From positions 1 to 21,694 of the IMG/VR virus record IMGVR_UViG_3300009512_000102: 21,694 nt of DNA. The stretch is one strand, 5' to 3'. The translations under genes and the position numbers were made by a program. The notes below the pieces were generated by a model. That model saw only the letters and a program-made list of their open reading frames with translations. It was not told the DNA's origin and did no database searches. The stretch is from a virus. Of the stretch, positions 2,241 to 21,242 are shown one piece after another (the first letter of the stretch is position 1; every line of letters starts with the position of its first letter).

Positions 2241-2256
2241 TGATATTTATATTAAA
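2241..2256 (+). promoter_or_regulatory. Late-type promoter motif A1 (TGATATTTATATTAAA)
   Basis: The motif begins one base after the sheath stop codon and lies 18 bases before the tube ATG. Its core TATTTATAT recurs at 2828, 3969 and 15189 ahead of other genes. No -35-like partner is visible, which fits a T4-type late promoter with a single -10-like element. Promoter function is inferred from recurrence and position. Confidence 0.55.
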
Positions 2257-2274
2257 TAAACAGGAGAAAAAGAA

Positions 2275-2766
2275 ATGGCAAATTTAATCGACCCAACGGA
2301 AATGATGTTCACAGCATTTGAACCAAAGGTAAAAAATAGATACGTATTTTATGTGGACGGACTTCCATCATACTTAATCAGAAAAGCTGCAAGGCCAAAG
2401 ATTGCTAATGGGGACGTAACACTTAAACATATAAATAACGAAAGACACTTAAAAGGTAGAAGTACATGGGAAACTATAAGCTTAGAGCTGTATGATCCAA
2501 TTGTACCTTCAGGTGCTCAGGCTGTTATGGAATGGGTAAGACTACACCACGAATCAGTAACAGGTAGAAATGGTTATGCAGACTTTTACAAAAAAGACTG
2601 TACAATCAATATTTTAGGACCTGTAGGTGATAAGGTAGAAGAGTGGACACTTAAAGGTGCTTTCATTACAGAAGCTGACTTTGGTGAAGTAACATGGGAA
2701 AATGACAATGAGCCAGCAATCATTACAATGACTCTAAGATTTGATTACGCAATCTTACAATACTAA
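2275..2766 (+). CDS. 19: Tail tube protein, gp19-like
   Basis: This is the subunit of the inner tail tube, through which DNA passes into the host. At 163 residues it matches T4 gp19 in length. It has the N-terminal pattern of the family (FEPKVKNRYVFYVDGLPSYLIRKAARPK), the central WETISLELYDPIVPSGAQ and HHESVTGRNGYADFYKKD stretches, and ends in a beta-rich segment (EVTWENDNEPAIITMTLRFD; read as separate strands). The start is an ATG preceded by CAGGAG at a normal spacing. It follows the sheath gene as in T4, has its own upstream late-type motif and is followed by an intrinsic terminator, so sheath and tube probably form the end of one transcription unit. Confidence 0.93.
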   Translation: MANLIDPTEMMFTAFEPKVKNRYVFYVDGLPSYLIRKAARPKIANGDVTLKHINNERHLKGRSTWETISLELYDPIVPSGAQAVMEWVRLHHESVTGRNGYADFYKKDCTINILGPVGDKVEEWTLKGAFITEADFGEVTWENDNEPAIITMTLRFDYAILQY

Positions 2767-2788
2767 TTGATTATTCAATAACGAAATT

Positions 2789-2818
2789 ATAGCCCAATTT
2801 ATTTTGGGCTATTTTTTT
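2789..2818 (+). terminator. Intrinsic (rho-independent) terminator
   Basis: A perfect 9-bp stem, ATAGCCCAA (2789-2797) with TTGGGCTAT (2804-2812), encloses a 6-base loop and runs directly into six further T residues (2813-2818). It lies 22 bases after the tube stop and before the next promoter-like motif, so it should separate the sheath-tube transcript from the baseplate run. Confidence 0.9.
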
Positions 2819-2823
2819 GTTTA

Positions 2824-2838
2824 TATATATTTATATAT
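2824..2838 (+). promoter_or_regulatory. Late-type promoter motif A2 (core TATTTATAT)
   Basis: The core TATTTATAT at 2828-2836 follows the terminator immediately and lies 39 bases before the ATG at 2876. This copy lacks the TGA prefix seen in the others and sits in a TA-repeat run, so it is the weakest match by sequence. Its position between a terminator and a new gene is what supports it. Confidence 0.45.
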
Positions 2839-2875
2839 GCAAGTTATATTAAAACAAAAATAAAGGAGTAGCATT

Positions 2876-3739
2876 ATGACAAAAGTAACAGAAAATTACC
2901 CAGGAAAAGAATTATCAACTGATCAATTAAAGCAACAGTTAGTAGAAGATGCAAAGATTGTTCAAGCAAAGGAAGCTAAATTCCCAACAGAGATTATAGA
3001 TTTACCAAGTAAAGGTTTATTATATCATAAAGACCACCCACTATCAACTGGACGAGTAGAAATGAAGTATATGACTGCTAAAGAAGAAGATATTCTTACT
3101 TCTCAAAATCTTATTCAGAAAGGTGTTGTGATTGATATGTTATTAAGATCTCTTATTGTAGGAAACGGAGAAGGCAAGCGAGTTAATTATGATGACCTTG
3201 TGTTAGGAGACAAAAACGCAATTATGGTAGCAGCAAGAGTGTTAGGTTACGGTGCTGAATATCCTATTGAACAAACATGTCCTAAGTGCCAGGCTAAATC
3301 AACTGAAACTATTGATCTTGCAAACTTAGACAACAAAGACATAGATATAACATCTAAAAACGAAAATATATTTGAATTCACTTTACCTTTAAGCAAGAAG
3401 GTTATAGCATTCAAGATCTTGTCTCACTCAGATGAAGCTAAGATTGCTGAAACAGCTAAAAAAATGAAGAAAAAAGCTCATTCTTCTCAAATTTCATTTG
3501 AATTAACAAGCAGACTTAAAGCAATGATACTTTCAGTTGATGGCGAAGACGATAGAAGAGAAATTGATTCGTTCATTGAAAATGAATTTATATCTAGAGA
3601 CTCATTAGCATTTAGAAAGAACTTGGATCTAGTAACACCTGATGTTGATATGACTCACTTCTTTGAATGCGGCGAATGCGGACATGAAGACTCAGTACAG
3701 ATTCCTTTAACCGTTGAGTTTTTTTGGCCTAGGGTCTAG
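2876..3739 (+). CDS. Baseplate hub assembly protein, gp26/gp51-like, with paired CxxC motifs
   Basis: The 287-residue product resembles the T4 baseplate family that includes gp26. It has the IIDLPSKGLLY opening (residues 40-50), a helical MTAKEEDILTSQNLIQKGVVIDMLLRS-type stretch (split here by reading it as two helices) and two CxxC knuckles, C135/C138 and C265/C268, that could hold one zinc ion. It should act in building the hub at the tail tip. The start has AAAGGAG 7 bases upstream. The frame ends 26 bases into the next gene, across a run of seven T residues (3719-3725), which may be a recoding site. The family call rests on motifs and position before the tape measure gene; the exact T4 counterpart is not certain. 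Confidence 0.72.
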   Translation: MTKVTENYPGKELSTDQLKQQLVEDAKIVQAKEAKFPTEIIDLPSKGLLYHKDHPLSTGRVEMKYMTAKEEDILTSQNLIQKGVVIDMLLRSLIVGNGEGKRVNYDDLVLGDKNAIMVAARVLGYGAEYPIEQTCPKCQAKSTETIDLANLDNKDIDITSKNENIFEFTLPLSKKVIAFKILSHSDEAKIAETAKKMKKKAHSSQISFELTSRLKAMILSVDGEDDRREIDSFIENEFISRDSLAFRKNLDLVTPDVDMTHFFECGECGHEDSVQIPLTVEFFWPRV

Positions 3740-3968
3740 CTATAGGCCCATTCTACACGAGCAGATATTTCAGCTTCTGTATTTCTCTAATGGTGGGTTT
3801 TCCCACGATGATGTATATAATATGCCTGTTTATCTTAGAATATTTTATTATAAGAAATTAAACGAACAGCATAAGAAAGAAAACGAGCAGATGGATAAAG
3901 CTCAAGGGAAAGGCAAATCTCCTAAGGGAATAAACATTCCATCTTTTGCGAAATCTCAAAAATCTTGA
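3714..3968 (+). CDS. Small tail-assembly-chaperone-like frame overlapping the gp26-like gene
   Basis: An 84-residue frame overlaps the previous gene by 26 bases and lies in the +1 frame relative to it. The only start in the overlap is a TTG at 3714 with no Shine-Dalgarno sequence; the next in-frame ATG would remove 37 residues. The core (HEQIFQLLYFSNGGFSHDD, then VYNMPVYLRIFYYKKLNEQ) has the 'short helix, Gly-Phe turn, Met-Pro, aromatic helix' look of small tail assembly chaperones, and the tail is Lys-rich. In many phages such a frame sits just before the tape measure gene and is made by ribosomal frameshifting, which fits the weak start and the T7 run. It may instead start independently, or the junction may hide an assembly indel. 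Function is inferred. Confidence 0.6.
   Translation: MSFFGLGSSYRPILHEQIFQLLYFSNGGFSHDDVYNMPVYLRIFYYKKLNEQHKKENEQMDKAQGKGKSPKGINIPSFAKSQKS
3719..3725 (+). other. T7 homopolymer, candidate recoding (frameshift) site
   Basis: Seven T residues lie inside the 26-base overlap of the gp26-like gene and the chaperone-like frame. In the upstream frame they are read TTT-TTT-T. A +1 slip, or a -2 slip, would join the two frames and give a fusion of about 370 residues. I see no clear downstream pseudoknot. A homopolymer error in assembly would look the same. Confidence 0.35.
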
Positions 3969-3981
3969 TATTTATATTAAA
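3966..3981 (+). promoter_or_regulatory. Late-type promoter motif A3 (TGATATTTATATTAAA)
   Basis: This is a 16-base perfect match to motif A1. Here the TGA is also the stop codon of the upstream frame. The ATG of the next gene is at 4009, with a ribosome binding site between them. Two identical 16-base copies at equivalent places argue for function rather than chance. Confidence 0.58.
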
Positions 3982-3995
3982 CTATATAACAGTAC

Positions 3996-4002
3996 AAGGA
4001 GA
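3996..4002 (+). promoter_or_regulatory. Ribosome binding site that fixes the start at 4009
   Basis: AAGGAGA lies 6 bases before the ATG at 4009. The frame is open further upstream to a TTG at 3946, but that start would place the promoter-like motif inside the gene and has no binding site, so 4009 is preferred. Confidence 0.7.
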
Positions 4003-4008
4003 GATGTC

Positions 4009-4284
4009 ATGGGTATCAAAAAATTACGAGAGTATGTTAAAGAAAAGATAAAGCTTGAAATGTCAAAAGATAAAAATTTGACAAAAGAAGGTATTATCGA
4101 CAATATCGTTAATCACGTAACCAACGTGCTTAAGAAAGCAAACGACAAAAGATTTGACTCAGCTATGAACCAGCTAGCAAAGTCAGGGCCTGAAGGTAAG
4201 AAGGCAGCCGAGCATTACTATGATTCTGTAGATTTGATAGACAAAGCAGCCGCTAACATGACTAACTATAATAAATACGATTAA
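4009..4284 (+). CDS. Hypothetical small helical protein before the tape measure gene
   Basis: I do not recognise this 91-residue protein. It is Lys-rich, predicted mostly helical (KKLREYVKEKIKLEMSKD, then IIDNIVNHVTNVLKKAND) and has no cysteine, signal peptide or membrane segment. It has its own late-type promoter motif and a good ribosome binding site, and its stop codon lies 9 bases before the tape measure ATG. Position suggests a role in tail assembly, for example binding the tape measure protein or the tail terminus, but nothing in the sequence shows that directly. Confidence 0.75.
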   Translation: MGIKKLREYVKEKIKLEMSKDKNLTKEGIIDNIVNHVTNVLKKANDKRFDSAMNQLAKSGPEGKKAAEHYYDSVDLIDKAAANMTNYNKYD

Positions 4285-4293
4285 ATATAAATT

Positions 4294-7200
4294 ATGGCCA
4301 ATGATAAAACGCAAGATCAAGAAGAGCTAAACTCCTTATTAAGTCAGGAGTCTTCTGTACTAGAGAAGATTGTATCTCTTGAGAACGATGTCAAGAATGT
4401 GATGAAGCAAAAGCTTCAGCTTAGGAACGAAGATCTCCAAACACAGAAGTCATTTGTTCAGTTTGTTCAGGCAGGTTTAGATATCGATGAGAAGCGAGTA
4501 CAAAATGCTCGTGACTTGGCTCAGCTTGGTAACAAAATTTTACAAGTAAAGGTACAAGACCAGAACTTAAACAATGCAAATCTAGCATCTGAACAATCAA
4601 TGTATGACGCTTCAAACAAACAGAAGCTTATTCATAACCAGAACTATCAAACTGGCTTGCTTATGGCAGAAACAAAAGATGGAATTGTTGACGCTGAAGA
4701 AGCAATACTCAAAATAATTAGAGATAAGAAAAAATTAGAAGATCCTTTATATAAAGCTAAGAAGGAAGAGCTTAAATTACTAGAGAAGAAAGAAGATTAC
4801 GAGAATAAATCTAGAGAGAATGGCGAAAAAATAAAAGGATTTTTCGAAGATATAAATGTATTAGCAAGCGATCCAAAAATAGCAGCTGGTGTGTTCACAG
4901 CGGTTATGTTAAAAAACGGAGTCGATTTTGCTGCAACTATGAGTGGAATTGGTGGCGACATGGGGCTATCAAGAGATCAGTCAATGGAGATGGCAGGTGA
5001 TTTAGGTGTAGCTTCAATAAAAGCTTTTGCCTTTGGAATATCTGCAAAAGAAATAGGTGAAGCATTTGCAGGCGTATCAGAGCAGATGGGATCGATGACA
5101 CCTGAAATGGTGGGTATGGCAGAGAACGCTGCCCACATGGCAAAGAGATTGAAATTATCTGGATCCGAAGCAGGTAAGTTATTTGCACTCACAAGTATGA
5201 TAGACGGCGGATCAGCAGATACTGCAGAGGCAACATTAAAGACAGTTGAAAATCTAGCAAGAGGTGCTAACGTACCTATAGGTAAAGTCATGAAAGACGT
5301 AGCTAACAGTGCCGATTTGATTGCTAGTTTTGGATATGACAATGTTGAAGCACTAGGTAAGGCAGCAGTAGAAGCTGCTAAGATGGGTACATCATTAGAT
5401 CAAATGGGCAAGACTGCATCTAAGTTAATGGATATAGACAACGCAAGAAATGAAGCGATGCAACTATCTGTTCTATTAAACCGAAGCATTGATGTAAGCA
5501 AGGCTCAACAGTTAATATATAGTGGAGATTTAGAAGGCGGATATAAAGAAATGCTGAGCCAGCTTGGAGGTATAGATGCATTTAATAAAATGGATTATTT
5601 CCAGAAGGAGAAAGCTGCAGCATTGATGGGACTATCAACAGGCGAAATGCAAAAACAATTAAACTTGGCTGCAGGTCTTACAGAGACAGGGTCCAAACAA
5701 GCAGAAGGCTGGGCAGCTGGTGCTGGGTTCTTGTCAGATGGTTGGGAATTTGCAAAAGGAAACGCAGAAACTTTGGTTGCAACTCTTGCACTTACTAAAT
5801 CATTAGGTAATACTAAAATTGCTATGTACTTGAAAGAAAAAGCTCACATGCTATGGAAGAAAGCATTTGGTGGCGGTGGCTCTAAAATTGCACAAGCTGC
5901 AGCAGCAGGCCCAATGAAAGCTGATGGTACTCCAGATATGAGGTTTAACTCAAATAAAGGACTGTTAAGTAAGATACAGAAGCCAGTAGACTCTGGTAAC
6001 AAGCTTACAACAAAAATGAACAAAATGCCAAAAAAGGACGGCAATGTAATATCAAGGTTCTTTAACTCGTTTAGCAAAGTTAAGTGGGGATCAATTGCAA
6101 AAGGTATAGTAGCTATGATTGGTATGGGTATTGCACTATTAGCATTTGTGCCAGGCTTTGCAGCTTTGGCAAGTGTGCCTGTTAAAGGTATACTGGCAGG
6201 TATAGGAACTCTTATTGCAATGACAGTTGCAATGAAACTTATGGGTAAATCATCAAGCTCGATACTTAAAGGTTCAGCCGGGCTTTTAATAATGGGAGCT
6301 GCTTTAATACCAGCAGCATTTGCATTCGGTATGATAGCCGATGTGCCTGTTGACGCTATGATTGGATTTGCGGCAGTGTTAGGTGTGCTAGGACTTGCAG
6401 TTGCATTGATAGGTATGCTAGGTACTTTACCTATAGGTGCAGCAGGGTTACTTATTATGGCAATAGCAATGATACCTGCAGCTTTAGCATTCCAAATGAT
6501 AGCAGGAATTCCAATGGGTGAGATGTGGAATTTTGCAGCAGTAATAAGTGTGTTAGGTTTAGCATTTGCAGGAATTGGAATGTTAGGTACATTACCTATA
6601 GGTGCATTAGGATTATTGCTTATGGCGCCAGCTATGATAATAGCTGCAGTTGCTTTTCAGATGGTTGCAGGCTTGCCAATGGGTGAGATGTGGAACTTTG
6701 CAGCAGTACTTTCAGTACTCGCATTGGCCATTGCAGGAATAGGATTTTTGCCAACAATATTTATAGGAGCAGCCGGTCTAATGATGATTGCTGCAGCAAT
6801 GATACCAGCCGCATTAGCATTTCAAATGGTAGCAGGAGTACCTGTTGAAAACATGATAGCTTTTGCAGCAGTACTTATAGGGCTAGGTGGTGCATTTGCA
6901 TTTTTAGGATTTGGTGCAGGGCTTATAGTTGCAGGTTCTCTAGCAATGTTAGTTGCAGCAGGAAGTCTTATTGTGTTTGGTACGGCAATGGGAATGATAC
7001 CTACTGAGTTAATGCAAGGTGAGCAAATGCTAATGATGGCTGCAGGAATGGGAGCTATGGGAGCGGCAGGTGTTGCTATGCTGTTTGGAGCTCCAGGATT
7101 TATGGCAATGTCAATGGGGCTAGTTATGTTTGCAGGAGCTCTTACACTTATTGCACCATTATTACCAGTAATTGAAAAACTTGCACAGCTAGGCATAATA

Positions 7201-7386: not shown

Positions 7387-7387
7387 T

Positions 7388-10183: not shown

Positions 10184-10187
10184 CACT

Positions 10188-10511
10188 ATGAAAAGATACG
10201 AAGATAACAAGTCACACATTACTACTAAATTTAATGATGGACTTAAAAAGGTTTTTAGGACAATAATATATCCTAAGATAGAATTGGACGTAGAGGATAT
10301 TTATATTGAATCACGACAAGGCGATAGATTAGATAACATAGCATATCAATATTACAGAGATACAACACTGTGGTGGGTTTTGGCAGAAGCAAATCATATA
10401 GGCAAAGGTACAATGTATGTTGACCCTGGTATGAAGATACGAATTCCTCACCCTGAAAAAGTATTTAGTATAATAAACAAGCTATATGACATAGAAAATG
10501 AAAGGTTATAA
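10188..10511 (+). CDS. LysM-like baseplate protein (gp53/gpX type)
   Basis: This 107-residue protein carries a LysM-type fold at residues 36-92. The core is SRQGDRLDNIAYQYYRDT, then LWWVLAEANHI, ending in PGMKIRIP, the usual 'leave the start, wait for the WxLxxxN helix, end at Pro-Gly-x-x-[IL]-x-[IV]-P' layout. In contractile systems such small LysM proteins (T4 gp53, P2 gpX and relatives) sit at the baseplate next to the hub rather than binding peptidoglycan. The neighbours on both sides fit that. The start ATG has CAGGAA upstream. The next gene starts 2 bases after the stop. Confidence 0.8.
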   Translation: MKRYEDNKSHITTKFNDGLKKVFRTIIYPKIELDVEDIYIESRQGDRLDNIAYQYYRDTTLWWVLAEANHIGKGTMYVDPGMKIRIPHPEKVFSIINKLYDIENERL

Positions 10512-10513
10512 AT

Positions 10514-11359: not shown

Positions 11360-11360
11360 T

Positions 11361-13409: not shown

Positions 13410-13421
13410 AGAGGATAAAAA

Positions 13422-14138
13422 ATGTTAGTATTCAAAGAAAAGCATATAAAATACGGATTCACTCAGGATGATAGCTATGTATTCACAAAAGGAGCTCATA
13501 AAGGTAAATCTTACACTGGTCCTATAATGAATTACTTTAAGAAAGTGTTTGCAGGAGAAAAAATGACACATGAAGTAATGAAGTGGGATAGATTGATAAA
13601 TGCTAATGGAGAAGAATTAGCTCAAATTGACTACAACAAATTAAAACCAAAGTACGAAAAAGACTTTAACTTCCCAGAAGATGAACCTCAGTTGTTGACT
13701 GAGAAAGAAATTAAAGAAGGCAAGTATAAAAAATATTTTGTTGAATACTGTGGGGATATATGCGAAGTACCAGATTATAAGTTTAAGTATTATAAAAAAT
13801 CTAGCACACCATATCACAAAGCAGTAAGAACTGTAGAGTTAGATCTAGGCTTAAGTGTATATGATATCGACTCGAATCTTTCAGCAATAGCAGAAGGCTC
13901 AAAAACAATTAAAGAGTTAGATACTAGAATACAACCTACTGCATATATGGATGTATTAGAAGATTTAACAACTCTTAGTGATTATGAACTAGAATATCAA
14001 GACGGAGAGCCATACGCCGGCGATTACCATATCCACCCCATGCATGGCCCTATGGAGGGAAAGTTCCATACAGGAGTACATAATAGATTGTACTGGAGTC
14101 GTAAAGAGCGATACACACCAAAAGGTTTAGTTCCGTAA
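13422..14138 (+). CDS. Hypothetical protein with C-terminal histidine cluster, end of the baseplate run
   Basis: I do not recognise the 238-residue product. It is rich in Lys, Tyr and Glu, soluble and without a signal peptide. The C-terminal part holds a tight His cluster, H203, H205, H208, H216 and H220, in the stretch GDYHIHPMHGPMEGKFHTG. A 'YHIH...G...G..H' end of this kind is something I associate with structural proteins of marine T4-like phages, but I cannot name the family. Spike-tip proteins of contractile phages often bind metal through HxH motifs, so a tip or fibre-attachment role is possible. The ATG has AGAGGA upstream, and the gene lies 12 bases after the hub-peptidase stop. Confidence 0.7.
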   Translation: MLVFKEKHIKYGFTQDDSYVFTKGAHKGKSYTGPIMNYFKKVFAGEKMTHEVMKWDRLINANGEELAQIDYNKLKPKYEKDFNFPEDEPQLLTEKEIKEGKYKKYFVEYCGDICEVPDYKFKYYKKSSTPYHKAVRTVELDLGLSVYDIDSNLSAIAEGSKTIKELDTRIQPTAYMDVLEDLTTLSDYELEYQDGEPYAGDYHIHPMHGPMEGKFHTGVHNRLYWSRKERYTPKGLVP

Positions 14139-14169
14139 ATTTCCCTATATCAAAATTTTTTGTTATATT
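14137..14169 (+). promoter_or_regulatory. Bipartite promoter motif B1, polymerase gene
   Basis: AAATTTCC (14137-14144), 18 bases, then TTATATT (14163-14169), with TTTTTTG before the second box. The same two boxes at the same 26-base offset occur at 17414 and, with two changes, 18878. The upstream box overlaps the end of the preceding gene. The ATG begins 6 bases after TTATATT, which predicts a leaderless mRNA. Confidence 0.6.
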
Positions 14170-14175
14170 TCATAT

Positions 14176-15183
14176 ATGTTAATTGAAACAAAAATACTAT
14201 TAAAAACAAAGTACTATCTATTTAACAACAAGCAGATAGATGATAATAATATAGAGCTTCCTATAAACAAGTTTTATAAACGACTGTACGGTGATAGATA
14301 TAACATCTATGATATAATACCGCAGTGCAAGCAAGAAGAAGAAATAGAGCATCTACGCTCTATCTCGCATGCATTAGAGGGAGTGTCTGACCAGGATATT
14401 ATAGACTATAATGAAAATATAGTTGCAACCTTTAGAAAAATTGAACAAAGTGGGTTATATACTAAAGAAGGCATGGAGTATACAAAATACAACGTGTATA
14501 CAACAACAGGCAGGCCTTCTAATTCTAATAAAGGCATAAATTATGCAGCATTAAATAAGGAAGATGGAACTCGAAAGAAATACGTTAGCAGATTTTCAGG
14601 AGGTTATTTGGCAGAATTTGATTATGACGCTTACCATTTAAGACTTATAGCTTCTTTAATAAACATAGAACAACCTGAGGGAAGCTTCCATAGATATTTA
14701 GGTAAACTATACTTTGATTCAGACACGCTAACGAAAGAGCAGTACAATGAATCTAAAAAAATAAGTTTCCAAATTTTATATGGCGGCATACCAAAAGAGT
14801 TTTTACGAATTGAATATTTCAATAAGATATCTGTATATATTTCTAAGCTTTGGGATATTTATAATAGTAAAGGTTATATAGAAACACCAATATTAAAGCG
14901 AAGGTTATATAAAAGAAATCTAAGAGACATGAACCCTCAAAAATTATTTAATTATTTAATACAGGCATACGAAACTGAAATGAATTGCAAGGTATTAAAA
15001 AATATTTTAGAGTTATTAGAAGAACATTCTAGTAAAATGGTGCTGTATGTATATGATGCATTTATATTTGATGTAGACCCTGATGAAAAGTTTCTTCTTA
15101 AAGAAATTCAGAGTCTAATGTCATTTCCATCTAAGCTTAAGATTGGTAGAGACTACCATAATATGAAGCATTTGGACCTATAA
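14176..15183 (+). CDS. Truncated, divergent family A DNA polymerase (palm/fingers only)
   Basis: The 335-residue product carries the family A polymerase core and nothing else. It has TTTGRP (109-114), motif A around D149 (FDYDAYHLRL), motif B with K194, F198 and Y202 (SKKISFQILYGG), GYIET (233-237), N259/Q263 and motif C around D294 (YVYDAFIFDV). Both catalytic aspartates are kept. E. coli Klenow is about 605 residues, so the 3'-5' exonuclease and most of the thumb are missing. Several usual residues differ: the steric-gate Glu of motif A is H154, the Arg before motif B is Tyr, and VHDE is Val-Tyr-Asp-Ala. It could be a split polymerase whose exonuclease lies elsewhere, a gap-filling enzyme, or a decayed copy. 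It interrupts the structural genes and has its own type B promoter. Confidence 0.82.
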   Translation: MLIETKILLKTKYYLFNNKQIDDNNIELPINKFYKRLYGDRYNIYDIIPQCKQEEEIEHLRSISHALEGVSDQDIIDYNENIVATFRKIEQSGLYTKEGMEYTKYNVYTTTGRPSNSNKGINYAALNKEDGTRKKYVSRFSGGYLAEFDYDAYHLRLIASLINIEQPEGSFHRYLGKLYFDSDTLTKEQYNESKKISFQILYGGIPKEFLRIEYFNKISVYISKLWDIYNSKGYIETPILKRRLYKRNLRDMNPQKLFNYLIQAYETEMNCKVLKNILELLEEHSSKMVLYVYDAFIFDVDPDEKFLLKEIQSLMSFPSKLKIGRDYHNMKHLDL

Positions 15184-15184
15184 T

Positions 15185-15200
15185 TTGATATTTATATAGA
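15185..15200 (+). promoter_or_regulatory. Late-type promoter motif A4 (TTGATATTTATATAGA)
   Basis: The motif starts one base after the polymerase stop, with core TATTTATAT at 15189-15197, 16 bases before the HNH gene ATG. AAAGGA between them is the ribosome binding site. It places this gene in the same class as the tail genes rather than the replication genes. Confidence 0.53.
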
Positions 15201-15213
15201 TAAAAGGAATGCT

Positions 15214-16980
15214 ATGAACATAAATTATTTATTAAACGATTGGGCCTGGAGAGTTAACGACGGAATGCCAGACCCGAAAAATAGAAACCATCTTGATTTA
15301 CTTGAGGCAGCTCTTAGAGACCACAAGTATTCTGAAGAATTTATTGAAGCGTATATATCTGAAATTGAATTTCCATCTCCACAAGCTCTAGCGAAATACA
15401 AAGCTAAACACAAGATGAGAAAAACCACTAAAGTAAAAATAGCTGGTGATGAAACAACTGTTGGAGATGCTGAAAAAGCAGCTAAGTCAGGTGAAGAAGA
15501 CAAGCCGAAAGCCGATAATAAAAAGACAGTAGAAGCAAGCGCAGCAGCAAATAAAGATCTTTCAGATAAAATTGGTTCAGAAAAAGATCCAAAGAAAAAA
15601 GAATCTCTAAAAGCTGAATATCTTTCTAACCAACTTGATAACATGTTGAAAGTAAGTTCTATAGAATCAGGAGCTGGTAGATACAATATGAATACAGATG
15701 ATGTAAAATCATATAGAGGTTATTTAGAAAAAATAATAAATGACCCTGATGAGCCTGGAAAATCTATACAAAAGTTAAAAGATGACCAAGTAAAAAAGCA
15801 CGGTCCAATAACTGAAGATGATATAGATAAATTTATCGAAGAGTTAGAAGCAGGTTCAAAATCAGATGATCCTAATTTTGAAAAAAACATAAAGAGCAAG
15901 GTTAGAGGTAAAGGCGGACCAGGTTCAAGTTTTACTACTGGAGAAGCAGGAGCTCAAAGATACAGAAATGTAATACGAGCTTATTTAGAAACAGGCGGTA
16001 TAAGTCCTATAACTGGTAAAGTAGTTCCATTTAGTGAATGTCAGTTAGACCATATCGTATCGCTAGGAAACGAAGGAAAGGATGAGCCAAGCAATTGGAT
16101 GTTTATGGAAGAGCGGTTCAATCAATTCAAAGGAAAGAAGACTGATGAAGATATTAGAGCTGATTTAGAAGAAGATCATTATTTAACAGATGCTGAAATT
16201 GCTGCAGGTACTGAGAGTGACAAAGTTGAAACTGCACTTAAAAAAGAAGATAGAGCATTTTGGAAAAACAAATTTGCAAAATCAAAAGGCAGAGAGTTGG
16301 AGGCAGGTGTTACCAAAGCTCAAATTGAAAAAATGAGCAAGCCTGAATTGGCAAATTTAGTATATGGTTATAATTTAGCCAACCCTGAAAATGAATTATC
16401 AAGGTACCCAACACCTAAGGTAGATTATAAAGGAAAGAAATTATCATTTGCTAGAGGCGAAGGCAAAAATAGTCCTATAAAACCAGTTGAAGGGGACCCA
16501 AGTACTTATGGTCTATCTTTAGATGATGATAAGAAGGTAAATCAAGATAAATCTATGGATTACGAAGCTTCAATAAAAGCATTTAAAGACAATAGAGGTT
16601 CTGGTGGTAGAGAAAAGAACAAAGAACAATATATTGAAACAATAATGGAAGCAGGCCTTGCATCTGATTCAAAAGAGCTAGATGAAAGATTTAATAGTAT
16701 GCTTGAAGAACATAGAACTGGCCAGTTAAAGCGAAGTAGTGCTATAAAAGCCAAGATAAAAGCAGCAAAAGAAGCACCTGGATCTATGGAGCAGAAAAGA
16801 AAGATTGTAACTAAATCAATGAAGGAATTCATAAGACAGAATCCAGAACCATTTGGTGCAAAATCTGACAGTTTTATTAAAGACGCGAAAAAACGAAAGA
16901 AATCTGCTGAGTGGAAAGAATGGAAAACTTCTATGGACAACTACAGATATAAACAGTGGTCAAAGTTTGGAGAAAAATAA
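15214..16980 (+). CDS. HNH-domain protein with helical N-terminal module
   Basis: The 588-residue, highly charged protein has an HNH nuclease core at residues 240-310: the strand GISPITGKVVPFSECQ, then L278-D279-H280-I281, N294 and N303 (ERFNQFKGKK). The His and two Asn are in HNH order, but the zinc-binding CxxC pairs of many HNH proteins are absent. Residues 1-55 (NYLLNDWAWRVNDGMPD...) form a compact helical module I recall at the front of other large marine phage proteins. Residues 60-230 and 330-588 are Lys/Glu-rich and probably coiled or disordered. The late-type promoter suggests a role late in infection, such as DNA processing, or a virion protein, rather than host takeover. A homing endonuclease is less likely given the size. 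The next gene starts right after its stop. Confidence 0.72.
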   Translation: MNINYLLNDWAWRVNDGMPDPKNRNHLDLLEAALRDHKYSEEFIEAYISEIEFPSPQALAKYKAKHKMRKTTKVKIAGDETTVGDAEKAAKSGEEDKPKADNKKTVEASAAANKDLSDKIGSEKDPKKKESLKAEYLSNQLDNMLKVSSIESGAGRYNMNTDDVKSYRGYLEKIINDPDEPGKSIQKLKDDQVKKHGPITEDDIDKFIEELEAGSKSDDPNFEKNIKSKVRGKGGPGSSFTTGEAGAQRYRNVIRAYLETGGISPITGKVVPFSECQLDHIVSLGNEGKDEPSNWMFMEERFNQFKGKKTDEDIRADLEEDHYLTDAEIAAGTESDKVETALKKEDRAFWKNKFAKSKGRELEAGVTKAQIEKMSKPELANLVYGYNLANPENELSRYPTPKVDYKGKKLSFARGEGKNSPIKPVEGDPSTYGLSLDDDKKVNQDKSMDYEASIKAFKDNRGSGGREKNKEQYIETIMEAGLASDSKELDERFNSMLEEHRTGQLKRSSAIKAKIKAAKEAPGSMEQKRKIVTKSMKEFIRQNPEPFGAKSDSFIKDAKKRKKSAEWKEWKTSMDNYRYKQWSKFGEK

Positions 16981-17382
16981 ATGAGAACTCAATTACTTTG
17001 CACATTCACAAAAACAAAGCTACTTACAAAAACTGTCGATAGAATAATACAGGCATATGATATATTATATAATAAAATATTTGTATTAAATAACGAAGAA
17101 AATCAATCGGAGTTAATGTGCACATACAACATTGATTCATCAGTGAAAGTAGAAATACTTCCAGACACAATTTCACTGCATAGAAAAAAGCAAACTAACA
17201 CTCTATATACTATTAACGCACTCAACGAATGTATTAAGACAGTTAACAATGGAGTTTTAGATACAACATTCCAATTAGATTGGGGAAACTACCAAAACAG
17301 TATATTAGTTACGAACGAGTCCGGCCTTAGAAGAATAGATACATCTATAAAAGAAGTCGTGCACATTAAAGTTAAACGATAA
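16981..17382 (+). CDS. Conserved-looking hypothetical protein
   Basis: I do not recognise this 133-residue product. It starts with the base after the HNH gene stop codon, so translation is probably coupled. It is a mixed alpha/beta protein without signal peptide or membrane segment; the N-terminus (MRTQLLCTFTKTKLL, then DRIIQAYDILYNKIFVLNN) reads like a strand-helix-strand ferredoxin-like fold. Three cysteines (7, 47 and 85) are scattered. No catalytic motif is visible. It is co-transcribed with the HNH gene, which is the only hint to function. Confidence 0.72.
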   Translation: MRTQLLCTFTKTKLLTKTVDRIIQAYDILYNKIFVLNNEENQSELMCTYNIDSSVKVEILPDTISLHRKKQTNTLYTINALNECIKTVNNGVLDTTFQLDWGNYQNSILVTNESGLRRIDTSIKEVVHIKVKR

Positions 17383-17413
17383 TTGTTAATAACTTTATAA
17401 AAAAAACATCTAA

Positions 17414-17451
17414 AAATTTCCATATCTCGGTAAGTTTTGTTATATTTATAT
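17414..17451 (+). promoter_or_regulatory. Bipartite promoter motif B2 overlapping a type A core
   Basis: AAATTTCC (17414-17421), 18 bases, then TTATATT (17440-17446), the same spacing as motif B1. The late-type core TATTTATAT (17443-17451) overlaps its downstream box, so this gene may be read in both phases. The ATG is at 17491, leaving a leader of about 35-40 bases. The rest of the 108-base gap holds an AT-rich inverted repeat at 17367-17397 and nothing else I can name. Confidence 0.58.
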
Positions 17452-17490
17452 ATAATTAAACAATAACAAATAACAAAAGCGTAATAACAA

Positions 17491-17835
17491 ATGAAACAAT
17501 TGACACTAGCAATAGTACTTTTCTTTGCAGGCCAGTCTCTAATCTGGTTCCAAACAAACGGCCAGTTTCTATGGAAGTGGTTCGACAAAAATCCAATAAT
17601 TTTATCAGTAGGTATGGGAAGCATAATTTCATATATGTTTATATTTGCAACTAAGCACGTTGTAGGTCATTTCGATGGTCTGTTGTGGCCTGGTAGATTT
17701 ATAGGCTTTGGAACAGGCATGATATCATTCGTTATACTGACATGGTGTTTCATGGGTGAAGGTATAACAACGAAGACAGCAATATCACTTGTATTGGCAA
17801 CAACGTTAGTTTGTATACAAATACTATGGAAATAA
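17491..17835 (+). CDS. Small four-helix membrane protein
   Basis: The 114-residue protein has four hydrophobic segments, at about residues 3-20, 37-54, 67-86 and 92-111, with short charged turns (KWFDKNP, HFDGLLWPGR). It should lie in the host inner membrane. I do not know its function. The DGLLWPGRFIGFGTG loop and the WCFMGEGIT turn look conserved in style and resemble small membrane proteins I recall from other marine T4-like phages. There is no lysis-protein signature such as a holin-endolysin pair nearby, so a holin role is not supported. The leader has no strong Shine-Dalgarno sequence. Promoter motifs of both classes overlap upstream. Confidence 0.75.
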   Translation: MKQLTLAIVLFFAGQSLIWFQTNGQFLWKWFDKNPIILSVGMGSIISYMFIFATKHVVGHFDGLLWPGRFIGFGTGMISFVILTWCFMGEGITTKTAISLVLATTLVCIQILWK

Positions 17836-17865
17836 TTTTTATATGTCAATTAAATTTATTATATT
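17833..17865 (+). promoter_or_regulatory. Bipartite promoter motif B3, uvsE gene
   Basis: TTATATT (17859-17865) lies 6 bases before the uvsE ATG, the identical spacing seen at the polymerase gene. The upstream box at the expected 26-base offset is degenerate (AATTT at 17834-17838) and overlaps the preceding stop codon. Leaderless transcription is predicted. Confidence 0.5.
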
Positions 17866-17871
17866 AAGAAT

Positions 17872-18888
17872 ATGGCAAAGCAATTAGGATACGCATGTAT
17901 TAACATGCACTTACGAAATCAAGGTATATATACAGGTAGATCTATGATACGACGCACGTTTGATGCAAAAGGTTTAGACTATGTGTCTGAACTATGTATC
18001 GCAAATACTAAAGATCTTATCAAGATAATTCAGTGGAATGAAGACAATGGAATAAAAGTATTTCGTATGTCTAGTGAAATATACCCTTGGATGTCTGAAT
18101 ATGAATTCAAAGATCTTCCAGACTATAACAAGCTTTGTAAATTACTAAAGCAAGTAGGTGATCTTGCTCAGCAATATGGTCAACGTTTATCGTTTCACCC
18201 AGGCCAGTTTACAGTTTTAGCTTCACCTACACAAAAGGTTGTAGATGGCGCATGGAATGAATTAAACAAATCTGGCCAGATTATGGATCTTATGGGGTTA
18301 CCGCGATCTAGAATGGCAAAAATAAATATACATATAGGCGGCGCTTACGGCAACAAGGAAACTGCACTTGTTAGATTCTGCAATAACTTCGAAAAGCTAT
18401 CCGAATCTGCAAAGTCTAGACTGACAGTAGAAAACGACGATAAGGCCTCAATGTATTCTGTAGTAGATTTATACGAAGGTGTATACAAACGCGTAGGTAT
18501 TCCTATTGTATTTGATTATCACCACCACCAATTTTGCACCGGTGGCCTTACTGAGGAGCAAGCTTTAAAGCTAGCTGTATCTACGTGGGGCGATATAAAG
18601 CCTTGCACTCATTATTCTGAATCACGTAGACGTGAGCATACTTTAATAGTAGAGGACATAATGGCAAAAAATAAAATAACGGAAAGCACTTTGTCAGACT
18701 TTCCTACAATAAAAAAGCTACACCATGATGTAAGCAAGATAAGAGTACAAGCTCATTCAGATCTTATAGTAGATAAAATACATGACTATGGACTTGACAT
18801 CGATGTTGTAGTAGAAGCAAAACATAAGGAGTTAGCAGTAAAAGGATATATAAATAAATTCGAACAAACATTAACAAAAGTTTCATAG
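17872..18888 (+). CDS. uvsE: UV damage endonuclease UvsE (UvdE family)
   Basis: This TIM-barrel, metal-dependent endonuclease nicks DNA 5' to UV photoproducts and starts alternative excision repair. The 338-residue length is normal. The family's metal-site stretches are all present: LGYACIN near the N-terminus, FRMSSEI (E69), SFHPGQF (H109), INIHIGG (H154), LTVENDD (E187), FDYHHH (D215, H217), CTHYSE (H247), AHSDL and VVVEAKHKE (E315). The ATG directly follows the promoter motif with no Shine-Dalgarno sequence, so a leaderless message is likely. It opens the repair and recombination block and probably protects phage and host DNA in sunlit surface water. This is one of the surest calls here. 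Confidence 0.95.
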   Translation: MAKQLGYACINMHLRNQGIYTGRSMIRRTFDAKGLDYVSELCIANTKDLIKIIQWNEDNGIKVFRMSSEIYPWMSEYEFKDLPDYNKLCKLLKQVGDLAQQYGQRLSFHPGQFTVLASPTQKVVDGAWNELNKSGQIMDLMGLPRSRMAKINIHIGGAYGNKETALVRFCNNFEKLSESAKSRLTVENDDKASMYSVVDLYEGVYKRVGIPIVFDYHHHQFCTGGLTEEQALKLAVSTWGDIKPCTHYSESRRREHTLIVEDIMAKNKITESTLSDFPTIKKLHHDVSKIRVQAHSDLIVDKIHDYGLDIDVVVEAKHKELAVKGYINKFEQTLTKVS

Positions 18889-18910
18889 ATTAAGAAATTT
18901 TTGTTATATT
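18878..18910 (+). promoter_or_regulatory. Bipartite promoter motif B4, H1-gp32-uvsX operon
   Basis: AAGTTTCA (18878-18885), 18 bases, then TTATATT (18904-18910), preceded by AAATTTTTG. It overlaps the end of uvsE. Here a leader of about 25 bases with a good Shine-Dalgarno sequence (CAGGAG) follows, unlike B1 and B3. It should drive the next three genes. Confidence 0.57.
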
Positions 18911-18942
18911 AACTATAATAATAACTAAAACAGGAGAAAAAC

Positions 18943-19116
18943 ATGGTATCAATTGAAAACATGACAGCAACTTTAGAAACTCTTAAAGCAGATGTAGACA
19001 AGTTTAACAACGGAAATATGTCAGCTGGAACAAGAATTAGAAAAGCAATGCAAGAAGTAAAAGGTCAAGCACAAGACTTAAGAAAAGAAGTGCAAGAAAT
19101 CAAAAATAGTAAATAA
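18943..19116 (+). CDS. Small histone H1-like protein
   Basis: This 57-residue gene has CAGGAG 7 bases before its ATG. The product is a single long amphipathic helix pair: an acidic first half (ENMTATLETLKADVDKF) and a basic second half with GNMSAGTRIRKAMQEVKGQA, then LRKEVQEIKNSK. The 'AGTR-[IV]-RK-x-[ML]-QE-[VL]-K' run is what I recall from the short histone H1-like (Hc1-type) proteins of Bacteroidetes, which bind and compact DNA. Placed directly ahead of gp32 and uvsX under one promoter, it probably acts on DNA during replication, or modulates host nucleoid proteins. It may have been taken from a host. The assignment rests on recalled sequence style. Confidence 0.72.
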   Translation: MVSIENMTATLETLKADVDKFNNGNMSAGTRIRKAMQEVKGQAQDLRKEVQEIKNSK

Positions 19117-19135
19117 TAATTAAAAGGAGAAAAAG

Positions 19136-19891
19136 ATGGCAATAGATTTAGATGCAATCAGACGTAAGTTAAATAACTTACAAACACAAACAGGTAGACA
19201 AGACAGTCTATGGAAACCAGAACCAGGTAAGAACCAAGTAAGAATCGTACCATATCAATTTAATAAAGACAATCCATTCATTGAAATGTATTTTCATTAT
19301 GATTTAGGTAAGAAAAATTACTTATCACCAGTAACATATGGAGATCCAGACCCAGTTGATGAGTTCGCTCAAAAACTAAGAGCTACAGGTAAATCAGATG
19401 ATTTTAACTTAGCTAAAAAACTTACACCTAAGATGAGAGTATATGCTCCAGTATTAGTAAGAGGTAAAGAATCAGAAGGTGTTAAGCTTTGGGGATTTGG
19501 TAAACAAGTATATACTGAACTATTAGGATTTATAGCAGATCCAGATTATGGTGACATTACAGATGTACAAGCTGGTAGAGATATTTCAGTAGAATTTACA
19601 CCGGCAGAAGGAGTAGGAAACTATCCTAAGACAGCAATTCGTGTGAAGCCAAATCAAACAGCAGCTACTGAAGATAAAAATATAGCTGATAAAATTGTAA
19701 ATGGTCAGAAAGATATCTATGAGATATTTAAAAAGAATTCTTACGATAACTTAAAAGCAGTACTAGGTGAGTGGTTAGATCCAGACTCAAATCTTGAAGC
19801 TGAACAGGCTCCAGTTGCAACATCAACAGCAACAGGCGTTAAGTCAACTGAAAGTATTGAAACTGCATTCGACGATTTGTTTAACGAGTAA
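19136..19891 (+). CDS. 32: Single-stranded DNA-binding protein, gp32-like
   Basis: The protein coats single-stranded DNA during phage replication and recombination and works with UvsX. The 251 residues follow the gp32 plan. A basic N-terminal stretch (LDAIRRKLNNLQ) serves cooperative binding. The OB-fold core includes SLWKPEPGKNQVRIVPY, FHYDLGKKNYLSPVTYGD and KLWGFGKQVY. The tail is acidic and ends FDDLFNE. T4 gp32 is 301 residues and has a zinc-binding subdomain with three cysteines; this protein has no cysteine at all, so that zinc site is lost. AAAGGAGA precedes the ATG. The uvsX ATG comes 3 bases after its stop codon, so the two are translationally coupled, in keeping with their physical partnership. 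Confidence 0.9.
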   Translation: MAIDLDAIRRKLNNLQTQTGRQDSLWKPEPGKNQVRIVPYQFNKDNPFIEMYFHYDLGKKNYLSPVTYGDPDPVDEFAQKLRATGKSDDFNLAKKLTPKMRVYAPVLVRGKESEGVKLWGFGKQVYTELLGFIADPDYGDITDVQAGRDISVEFTPAEGVGNYPKTAIRVKPNQTAATEDKNIADKIVNGQKDIYEIFKKNSYDNLKAVLGEWLDPDSNLEAEQAPVATSTATGVKSTESIETAFDDLFNE

Positions 19892-19894
19892 AAT

Positions 19895-21025
19895 ATGGCA
19901 AAGGCAAAGAAAAACAAACGAGATGAATTGGCGTCAGTATTGGCTGACTCTCTAAATAAACAGTTCAAAGGTATGAAAGTTGCATACTTCTTAGATGGAG
20001 CAGAAGATACACCGACTGATTTAACTGAGTGGATAAGCACTGGTTCATCGATTCTTGACCTTGCTATTTCTAATAGGCCAAATGGTGGTTTACCTGTAGG
20101 TAGAATTACAGAAATTACTGGAATGGAAGCCTCCGGTAAATCACTATTAGCGGCTCACTTACTTGCAAACACTCAGAAAATGGGAGGTCTTGCTGTATAC
20201 ATCGATACTGAAAATGCTATGAATGAAGAGTTCTTAACAGCAATAGGTATGGATATGACTAAGATGCTTTATATTCAACTTGAAACGGTAGAAGATATTT
20301 TTGAGGTAATTGAAAATATAATTCTTAAAGTTAAAGAAAGTGATAAAAACAGACTTGTATCAATAGCAGTAGATTCTGTTGCGGCAGCAACTACTAAAGT
20401 TGAACAGGCTCAGGATTATGACAAAGAAGGGTGGGCAACGTCAAAGGCAATAGTACTATCAAAAGGTATGAGGAAAATTACTCAGCTAATAGGTAGAGAA
20501 AGAGTTGCTCTGTTCTTTACAAATCAATTAAGACAAAAGCTAGGAGTCATGTTTGGCGACCCTTGGACGACAAGTGGTGGTAAGGCAATTCAGTTCCACG
20601 CTTCATGCAGATTGAGATTAAAGGCAGCAGGACAGATCAAAGCTAAAATTGCAGGTAAAGAACAAGTAATAGGTATTAAGACTAAATGCGTTGTTGTAAA
20701 AAATAGAATGGGTCCTCCATTACGCACAGCAGAATTCAACATCTTTTTCGAATCAGGGATAGATGACACAGGATCTTGGCTGCAGGTAATGAAAGACTAT
20801 AGTTTAGTGAAACAAGGAGGGTCATGGTATACTTATACTTGCGACGTTACAGGTGAAGACATCAAGTTTTTATCTAAAGACTTCGAAGAAAAGATACTTT
20901 CTCATCCTGAAAGAAAAGAAAGTTTATATAAAAAGATTTGTGAAACAATGGTTATGTCATATAAAACTGATGGTATTGGTATCGATGATATCGAAATCGG
21001 AAATGATGATGTACCAATAGGATAA
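19895..21025 (+). CDS. uvsX: Recombinase UvsX (RecA-like)
   Basis: UvsX forms filaments on single-stranded DNA and carries out strand invasion for recombination-dependent replication and repair. The 376 residues include Walker A (GMEASGKS, 76-83), the catalytic glutamate E106 in YIDTENAM, Walker B ending at D160-S161 (VSIAVDS), and the DNA-binding loop region TNQLRQKLGVMFGDPW with TSGGKAIQFH (209-235). The C-terminus is acidic (GIDDIEIGNDD). Length and motif spacing are as in T4 UvsX (391 residues). It is the last gene of the H1-gp32-uvsX unit. No clear terminator follows; the next feature is the tRNA-like RNA 8 bases on. Confidence 0.95.
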   Translation: MAKAKKNKRDELASVLADSLNKQFKGMKVAYFLDGAEDTPTDLTEWISTGSSILDLAISNRPNGGLPVGRITEITGMEASGKSLLAAHLLANTQKMGGLAVYIDTENAMNEEFLTAIGMDMTKMLYIQLETVEDIFEVIENIILKVKESDKNRLVSIAVDSVAAATTKVEQAQDYDKEGWATSKAIVLSKGMRKITQLIGRERVALFFTNQLRQKLGVMFGDPWTTSGGKAIQFHASCRLRLKAAGQIKAKIAGKEQVIGIKTKCVVVKNRMGPPLRTAEFNIFFESGIDDTGSWLQVMKDYSLVKQGGSWYTYTCDVTGEDIKFLSKDFEEKILSHPERKESLYKKICETMVMSYKTDGIGIDDIEIGNDDVPIG

Positions 21026-21032
21026 CAACAAT

Positions 21033-21227
21033 GCTGTGTGTGGTGGAATAATTGAAAAGCTCAAAAGGCCTGGTAGATTTTGGAAAACACCCTTTTGCGG
21101 AAGGTAACTGAAGCGGTAACACCGACTCAATGTTCATAAAGAGTACATGAACATAATGGCTTTTTTTAAGTTTTTAGCCAATTAAGTAGTACTTGAAAAA
21201 CTGTGGGTTCGAATCCCACCGCACAGC
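21033..21227 (+). ncRNA. tRNA-like RNA with normal acceptor and T arm but enlarged centre
   Basis: The ends fit a tRNA. Bases 21034-21040 pair with 21220-21226 as a 7-bp acceptor stem (one G-U), extended by G21033-C21227. The T arm is perfect: GTGGG, loop TTCGAAT, CCCAC (21203-21219). T8 (21041), then G-T-G-G and A14 follow correctly, and the D region recalls tRNA-Leu (GTGGAAT ... TGGTAGA), but with about 21 extra bases inside the loop. The centre is about 160 bases where a tRNA has 40-60. It holds hairpins CAAAAGG/CCTTTTG (21062, 21091), an 8-bp ATGTTCAT/ATGAACAT (21130-21154) and AGTTTTT/AAAAACT (21169-21202). I cannot find a normal anticodon arm. An intron-bearing tRNA, a decayed tRNA or a new tRNA-ended RNA are all open. 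No CCA is encoded. Confidence 0.55.
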
Positions 21228-21228
21228 C

Positions 21229-21242
21229 TTTGTTGTTATATT
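21229..21242 (+). promoter_or_regulatory. Weak promoter motif B5, secreted protein gene
   Basis: TTGTTGTTATATT lies just after the tRNA-like RNA and 25 bases before the ATG at 21268. It shares the downstream box (TTATATT at 21236-21242) with the other type B motifs. The matching upstream position falls inside the T arm and does not fit the consensus well. Confidence 0.4.

Follow-up and report, generated by a model that had tools for sequence, protein, structure and literature searches.

Two promoter motif classes and Shine-Dalgarno use in a T4-like phage lineage apparently infecting Bacteroidota

The stretch of DNA analysed here (the window) is a whole virus record of the IMG/VR database, IMGVR_UViG_3300009512_000102, of 21,694 bases. 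It appears to be part of the genome of a T4-like phage, of a lineage apparently infecting Bacteroidota. Its proteins match PHROG families for sheath, tube, baseplate hub, baseplate wedge, DNA polymerase, endonuclease, gp32-like single-strand-binding and UvsX-like proteins, and its H1-like protein is assigned to Hc1 by Pfam (1.2e-19). The top-ranked named phage is Flavobacterium phage immuto for the sheath and Microcystis phage Mel-JY01 for UvsX; a search of genome contigs gave no match to UvsX. Two classes of short motif, A and B, stand upstream of genes in the window and in its relatives, which are very common in IMG/VR (at least 599 candidate stretches), and these motifs, their likely readers and their relation to translation are the subject of this report.

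Genome-wide statistics, PWM (position weight matrix) sites and function-split counts rest on nine genomes, namely the window and eight larger related records, in which gene starts come from our own caller, which rewards Shine-Dalgarno (SD) sequences. The genes so called are co-directional in all nine (the annotation of immuto lists six small minus-strand open reading frames, ORFs), so that the antisense strand serves well as a control. A held-out set comprised 148 loci after 5 of 153 had been removed for near-identity with the training genomes; the held-out, bS21/SD and sigma-locus tallies include near-duplicate loci.

The two motif classes and their sites

Class A is a single box with the consensus [G/T]ATATTTATA and without a -35 box; a wide logo contains only [G/T]ATATTTATA, nothing exceeding threshold in the 40 bases upstream or the 30 bases downstream. 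In the window, putative class A (late) promoters on the plus strand precede the tail tube gene (2275-2766; site 2241-2256, core GATATTTATA at 2242-2251, exact, PWM score 17.6), a gp26-like baseplate gene (2876-3739; TATATTTATA at 2826-2835, score 14.9), a gene for a 91-residue protein (4009-4284; site 3966-3981, core 3967-3976, exact, score 17.6) and the gene at 15214-16980 (GATATTTATA at 15187-15196, score 14.2), labelled HNH in the initial annotation, for which no PHROG or Pfam family was matched. All four genes carry an SD sequence, which is AGGAG at 2262-2266, 2864-2868 and 3997-4001 for the first three and AGGA at 15205-15208 for the last. The initial annotation had described a 16-base class A sequence identical in two places, and TGATATTTATATTAAA is indeed exact at 2241-2256 and 3966-3981. 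Its statement that these sites lie right after stop codons holds at 2241, at 15187 and at 3966 (where the site overlaps the TGA of the preceding ORF, which ends at 3968); the site at 2826 is the exception, lying about 60 nucleotides (nt) past the stop. By eye, a hairpin and T run resembling an intrinsic terminator are visible at 2791-2818, between the tube and gp26-like genes, adjoining the class A site of the latter on its 5' side.

The enrichment of class A is evident both in the window and across the lineage. The pattern TATTTATAT has eight matches on the two strands of the window (six sense, two antisense) against 1.10 expected, a count that none of 100 shuffles reached, and the class A PWM finds eight sense sites and one antisense site, against a mean of 0.85 and a maximum of 2 in 20 dinucleotide shuffles. 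Besides the four sites at 2242, 2826, 3967 and 15187, a further one at 17441 overlaps a class B site, and scores above 8 occur on the coding strand inside genes at 10296 (14.6), 14854 (15.6) and 20828 (10.6), possible internal late promoters; the one antisense score above 8 is at 18321. Across the nine genomes, GATATTTATA occurs 96 times in sense and twice in antisense orientation, with 75 of the 96 sense copies and neither antisense copy in gaps between genes, which make up 5-11% of the DNA. In a count of 9-mers over 411 upstream gaps, ATATTTATA ranks first, being present in 122 gaps where 1.35 would be expected from coding frequency, with one antisense occurrence. With refined matrices, class A was found in 151 of 436 gaps, class B in 115 and both in 20. 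In five relatives (G001, G002, G004, G005 and G009), class A cores also lie 11-16 nt before the ATGs of look-alike genes, for instance GATATTTATATATG before a family of about 100 residues, which hints at a transcription start very near the box, or at leaderless mRNAs for these genes as well.

Class B has the layout A[T/G]TT[T/G], 20 nt, TATATT, often with TT-TTnT directly before TATATT, and the core TTGTTATATT. Four plus-strand sites occur in the window. The first, at 14133-14172 (TTGTTATATT at 14160-14169, PWM score 25.6), precedes a DNA polymerase-like gene (14176-15183; PHROG DNA polymerase, 9.6e-16) without an SD, whose ATG at 14176 lies 6 nt after TATATT (distance 16) and is predicted to be leaderless. 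The second, at 17410-17449 (TTGTTATATT at 17437-17446, class B score 29.6), precedes a membrane-protein gene (17491-17835) and holds the class A core TATATTTATA in register at 17441-17450 (class A score 15.2). The third, at 17829-17868 (TTATTATATT at 17856-17865, score 31.7), precedes a UvsE-like endonuclease gene (17872-18888; PHROG endonuclease, 5.9e-51; the uvsE name comes from the initial annotation), again without an SD and with a predicted leaderless ATG at 17872 (distance 16). The fourth, at 18874-18913 (TTGTTATATT at 18901-18910, score 23.7), heads the H1-gp32-uvsX operon, and its H1-like gene (18943-19116) is class B-led yet bears an SD, AGGAG at 18932-18936. The exact 26-base offset between the two boxes that had been claimed for three sites stands at each (14137/14163, 17414/17440 and 18878/18904) and extends to the uvsE-like gene (17833/17859); the upstream box AAATTTCC is exact only at 14137 and 17414, the remaining two sites reading AAGTTTCA and TAATTTTT.

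Taken singly and with one mismatch allowed, neither AAATTTCC nor TTGTTATATT is commoner in the window than in shuffles, whereas the composite class B PWM gives four sense and no antisense sites there, and none in 20 dinucleotide shuffles. A copy of TTGTTATATT at 21233-21242, preceding the last gene, was rejected as a class B site, as it has no upstream boxes and scores -7.8. In the nine genomes, TTGTTATATT occurs 40 times in sense orientation, 37 of them in gaps, against 11 antisense occurrences with none in gaps; TTGTTATAT is found in 33 of the 411 gaps (0.62 expected, 2 antisense) and TGTTATATT in 32 (about 0.6 expected, 0 antisense). Both motifs thus favour gaps over the insides of genes across the nine genomes, and the promoter proposal of the initial annotation came through this comparison unrefuted. 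A class A core stands in register on the same TATATT in 15 of the 115 class B sites, where about 2 would be expected from base frequency, and such sites, including that at 17437, are possible dual promoters. Measured from where the TTnT block begins, the ATG lies 15-16 nt away in 16 of the 115 sites, at 20-24 nt in none and at 25 nt or more in most others.

Division of virion and DNA-metabolism genes

The proposal that the two classes separate virion genes from DNA-metabolism genes is borne out. With categories set by homology rather than by motif, and with the list chosen from the annotation of immuto and the window, a site directly upstream is class A in 41 and class B in 2 of 43 virion genes, and class B in 20, class A in 1 and both in 1 of 22 DNA-metabolism genes; the associated P of 2e-13 overstates independence, as orthologues repeat. 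When the nearest upstream site is taken instead, virion genes count 96 A, 7 B, 1 with both and 1 with none, and DNA-metabolism genes 62 B, 12 A, 3 with both and 1 with none. Where a site lies directly upstream, class A precedes sheath, tube, gp26-like, head completion, tape measure and tail fibre genes, and class B precedes polymerase, primase, UvsE, DnaB, QueD and gp32 genes (one with both). The isolate immuto obeys the same division, with nine virion genes led by A and two DNA genes by B, directly upstream.

The held-out loci agree. Class A precedes 34 of 36 sheath, 57 of 70 tube, 32 of 72 gp26-like, 14 of 48 tape measure, 5 of 5 91-residue and 10 of 12 HNH-labelled genes, with class B before none of them, and class B precedes 14 of 18 polymerase, 13 of 20 uvsE and 7 of 7 H1 genes. 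The membrane gene has B in three cases, both in three and none in three, and gp32 (n=60) has B in 28, both in 3, A in 10 and none in 19. Operon-internal genes are nearly devoid of sites (uvsX 0/71, LysM 0/22, gene 7388 2/28), and the antisense controls over all rows yielded class A in three places and class B in none.

It is highly improbable that the boxes are AT-rich processing, RNA-stability or replication elements rather than promoters. The class A cores inside genes at 10296, 14854 and 20828 would suit such elements, but these do not account for the fixed strand, the position just 5' of genes, the division by gene function, the sharp 15-16 nt peak between class B and SD-less ATGs, or the sigma-2-like protein encoded in the lineage.

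Likely readers of class A and class B

The initial annotation had likened class A to the one-box late promoter of T4, and this comparison is upheld. T4 late promoters are described in PMC2988020, as far as its relevant passages go, as a single box standing alone. As in the T4 late system, class A is a single box near -10 without -35 conservation, it precedes virion genes, and the lineage encodes a small phage sigma-2-like protein; it differs in its coding-strand consensus, [G/T]ATATTTATA rather than TATAAATA (which in gaps of each of the nine genomes is mostly antisense, as the complement of class A), and in that the gp45 clamp domain was undetected. The sigma-2-like family, seeded from gp118 of immuto, is present in immuto, G001, G002 and G005, and in one scan 288 of 294 candidate IMG/VR stretches contained it. 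Its AlphaFold model (predicted local distance difference test score 82, predicted template modelling score 0.50) was given a second structural comparison, headed, level with other sigma factors, by chain F of the gp55-dependent open complex 7d7c (Z 10.1, root-mean-square deviation 4.8 over 118 residues); we take this chain to be gp55. By title, the 50 rows listed are sigma factors, if three integrative-model rows named RPSH, RPSB and RPSD are taken as such. Scans of the sigma alignment against Pfam and PHROG gave no confident family. The nearest promoter upstream of the sigma gene is class B in four of four genomes, at a distance of 1.7-2.5 kb with several genes in between. Of 80 sigma loci, 41 held-out ones were examined; 33 of these had no promoter in range, and in the other eight the nearest was again class B. 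Because of this, the phage sigma may be made from class B and then read class A. We infer that class A is recognised by a gp55-like sigma.

Class B had been regarded as the counterpart of the two-box T4 middle promoter, and this part of the earlier proposal was not sustained. The likeness lies in two boxes at fixed spacing before replication genes. MotA (MotA_activ, PF09114) and AsiA (phrog_1166) were each found in none of seven records, one of them the complete genome of immuto and the other six possibly incomplete, whereas the T4 positive controls scored 3.2e-63 and 2.4e-42, respectively. In immuto and G009, moreover, the upstream box resembles the host -33 element, reading GTTG with 20 nt from TTG to TATATT, and in the pooled class B sites 20 nt separate TT[T/G] from TATATT. 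In the sections of PMC6847099 concerned with it, the primary sigma promoter of Bacteroidota is given as TTTG / TANNTTTG, with the latter box running from T-12 to G-5 and 4 or 5 nt from the start. TT[T/G]-N20-TATATT fits the -33 element and, within the -7 box (TAnnTTTG), its TAnnTT portion, and pooled sites keep T-12, A-11, T-8 and T-7; class B differs in mostly lacking G-5, in having T-6 in about half of the sites, and in its extra TTnT and tca blocks. A full host-type TTG-N17-23-TAnnTTTG was rejected as an early promoter, with one sense match in the gaps of the nine genomes. Of the 28 class B sites in immuto, 14 fall between 60 and 75 kb, a 15-kb stretch of very small ORFs with a mean gene length of about 300-340 nt.

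Given the host -33/-7 spacing, the failure to find MotA and AsiA in these records and the crowding of sites among small ORFs in immuto, class B fits better as an early/middle promoter that would be read by a host-type sigma. A T4-type middle promoter, in which a MotA-like phage activator bound to the upstream box would divert the host sigma to TATATT, is unlikely: a tca block, conserved in some members of the clade and placed between TATATT and the -33-like box, would suit it, as would the fact that class B-led genes of known function are mostly those of replication and repair, but it is opposed by the absence of MotA_activ and AsiA from all seven records with T4 positive, by GTTG followed by TATATT at the host spacing in immuto and G009, and by the location of half the immuto sites in a region with the usual look of early genes. 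A divergent activator is conceivable. The -7 geometry of F. johnsoniae places the class B +1 at 6-7 nt past TATATT, and the ATG peak at 15-16 nt falls at or next to this predicted +1. Several class B genes are therefore predicted to be leaderless, with mRNAs that would start at the ATG.

The model that we consider probable thus has two promoter classes: host RNA polymerase carrying a host-type sigma would transcribe from class B in the early/middle phase, and a gp55-like sigma would serve class A late. The genes of replication and repair would be expressed from class B, several of them through leaderless mRNAs; in relatives it would also drive the operon that encodes the sigma-2-like protein and, in the majority of them, bS21 (a ribosomal protein). 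The gp55-like sigma on the host core polymerase would then read class A to express virion genes. The assumption of the initial annotation that host promoters are unlike those of E. coli is backed indirectly, by four relatives bearing a Bacteroidota sorting tail (see below).

Several observations weigh against this model. Neither class was found in 190 of the 436 gaps, in which a third clear motif was sought and rejected, only A-rich and A-like words standing out. The division of functions has exceptions, as terminase, a mixed family, is led by B in G002 and G012, NrdB is led by A in G002, 10 of the 60 held-out gp32 genes have class A alone, and 40 of 72 gp26-like and 34 of 48 tape measure genes have no site; orthologues and near-duplicate loci also make the counts non-independent. 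Class B mostly lacks G-5 and retains T-6 in about half of the sites. The window itself has neither a sigma gene nor a bS21 gene. Chain F of 7d7c is tied with chains of sigma-B, sigma-S and sigma-E at Z 9.3-10.0 (next rows 10.0, 9.9 and 9.6), in a comparison restricted to the candidates of Foldseek, and the all-helical fold calls for caution with a Z near 10; Foldseek by itself gave no match at E 0.001 (best E 0.23). At the sequence level, phrog_234 was matched weakly (E 0.008) in one of 17 records, the Sigma70_r2 match is below cut-off, and hhalign to T4 gp55 gives a probability of 5% (E 0.007). A search for phrog_12791 had no hit in the 17 records, a result that carries no weight because this family matched nothing elsewhere either. 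The N-terminal domain of the T4 gp45 clamp (PF02916) was found in none of the seven records, with the T4 control found; a divergent sliding clamp in the lineage is possible.

Apart from the promoters, two features near the end of the window deserve mention. At 21026-21230, 3' of uvsX, lies a noncoding element of about 200 nt that can be aligned in ten relatives. It contains a T-arm like that of a tRNA (GGTTCGAATCC), preceded by a likely pseudoknot; the stretch taken for the copy in L003 stops before the T-arm. The GTGGYGGAATG start of the element recalls tRNA-Leu, and the window copy had no match by ARAGORN or in Rfam at the gathering threshold. At 21268-21693, a secreted-looking gene is truncated by the end of the record, with similar proteins in G004 and L008; for the last gene of the window, no family was matched in PHROGs, the sole library scanned.

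Shine-Dalgarno use, bS21 and a possible coupled switch

The two classes also differ in SD use. Of the leadered class A genes, 89 of 101 bear an SD, against 22 of 52 leadered class B genes (P 5e-9), and counting without start calls gives 83/101 and 23/52, respectively, and 4/16 for class B sites with an ATG within 19 nt. Class-B-only starts with an ATG within 19 nt lack an SD in 16 of 16 cases, and in 33 of 33 held-out ones; the polymerase and uvsE-like genes of the window are of this short-leader type. SD-bearing starts number 0/16 for short class B, 2/12 for short class A and 1/19 for sites of both classes. Held-out loci outside a low-SD group repeat the pattern (A 203/226, B 41/81, P 1.5e-12; short B 0/32, both classes 5/8). 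The spacing of SD sequences peaks at 6-9 nt, the complement motif occurs 0 times, and a control stretch has SD at 55 of 822 starts. The SD core is present at 47-62% of starts in the window and seven relatives, and at 17 of 205 in immuto, which shares the same class A and has SD at 0 of 18 class A-led starts; similarly, 21 held-out loci (of 118 with at least six genes) are low in SD despite the same class A (5/28). The class split is not clean, since SD-bearing class B genes include those for gp32 and the H1-like protein.

That class A genes mostly bear an SD is unexpected for Bacteroidota hosts, which normally ignore it. Por_Secre_tail is a type IX secretion system (T9SS) sorting domain, a feature of Bacteroidota. 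In four of the nine genomes (G001, G002, G003 and G009), phage-encoded proteins of about 960-1150 residues carry such a C-terminal sorting domain, the ends matching Por_Secre_tail above the Pfam cut-off in all four tested, which had been picked by tail motif. Eight GTDB contigs hold a related tube gene, five in Flavobacteriales or within (L334 by a partial match), one in Alphaproteobacteria and two unnamed, although contig bins are weak host evidence. PMC9976891, in the passages relevant here, attributes the disregard of SD by Bacteroidia ribosomes to bS21, bS18 and bS6, which hold the 16S tail; it reports that bS21 mutation or depletion in F. johnsoniae increases translation of strong-SD reporters, and that a Y54A strain was constructed.

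Eight of 17 records, immuto not among them, encode bS21; it was not found in six partial SD-using records (G007, G008, G010, G011, G013 and G014). In bS21, Tyr54 helps to hide the anti-Shine-Dalgarno. We equate Tyr54 of the reference chain 9i5v_9 with Tyr54 of F. johnsoniae; in this column, all seven aligned phage bS21 proteins of the lineage have Arg or Ala (that of G005, with a miscalled start, was not counted), and so have neither Tyr54 nor another aromatic residue, as would be expected of a bS21 that keeps the anti-Shine-Dalgarno hidden. The bS21 gene is class B-led in six of six genomes with a usable start and lacks an SD in five of these (G001 has AGGA); that of G006 is an exception, with neither class upstream and with GAGG. 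Among phage loci holding bS21, 19 with Tyr54 have SD at 16 of 265 starts and 13 without it at 128 of 169, with no overlap between loci, a correlation confounded by host phylum. Among the 13, L214-L218 alone belong to the clade type; residue 54 in nine loci (L214-L218 and L243-L246) was extrapolated past the local alignment, and L242, having no callable genes, was excluded. The Bacteroidetes-phage bS21 proteins of Chen et al. 2022 (PMC9723584) are comparable, in that myoviruses predicted to infect Bacteroidota carry their own bS21 and late redirection of ribosomes is proposed; as reported there, theirs keep Tyr54 (54/61) or another aromatic residue (7/61), as opposed to Ala or Arg in 7/7 here, and the lineage described here differs further in that its late genes carry SD.

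One reading, to which we give an even chance, is that the phage flips transcription and translation together. Class B mRNAs, often without an SD and some of them leaderless, would be usable by SD-blind Bacteroidota ribosomes and would encode the late sigma and a bS21 without Tyr54; the latter would replace host bS21 and free the anti-Shine-Dalgarno, and ribosomes so retuned would favour the SD-bearing class A late mRNAs. The 42% of leadered class B genes with an SD speak against such coupling, as do the short AGGAG sites, weaker than the extended SD reportedly needed by bS21-depleted Flavobacterium ribosomes in the part of PMC9976891 that treats them. It is a serious possibility, if a somewhat doubtful one, that the SD difference instead reflects expression level or inherited history, from an ancestor in an SD-using host, with phage bS21 unrelated to it. 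The phages whose residue 54 is Leu or Lys (L235-L238 and L243-L246) may infect other phyla, which would confound the correlation with host; 22 of 52 leadered class B genes bear an SD; the six partial SD-using records yielded no bS21; and among the GTDB contigs, L330-L332 (Winogradskyella, Flavobacteriaceae and Flavobacteriales) are SD-poor (1/14, 0/9 and 2/11), whereas L327 (Flavobacteriales, 5/10) and L328 (Alphaproteobacteria, 4/5) are SD-rich. This alternative is opposed by immuto, complete and without bS21, which has the same class A but SD at 0/18, by the low-SD held-out loci (5/28), by the four SD-using relatives with a Bacteroidota T9SS tail, and by the lack of Tyr54 in 7/7 bS21 proteins of the lineage.

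T4-type late promoters and phage bS21 were already known. No published account of the promoters of this lineage, of SD use by phages with bS21 or of their coupling was recognised in the open-licence PMC literature; as far as this search shows, the promoter sequences, the leaderless class and the link between late promoter, SD use and Tyr54-less bS21 are new. According to the pertinent passages of PMC9723584 and PMC9976891, how phage bS21 affects the choice of mRNA is yet to be tested. The findings chart the predicted early/middle and late promoters of a T4-like lineage that is common and for the most part uncultured, with immuto as a cultured relative, and suggest that late in infection the virus resets transcription as well as translation. 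If true, coupling of the two would give phage bS21 a concrete role: by exposing the anti-Shine-Dalgarno, it would let late mRNAs prevail.

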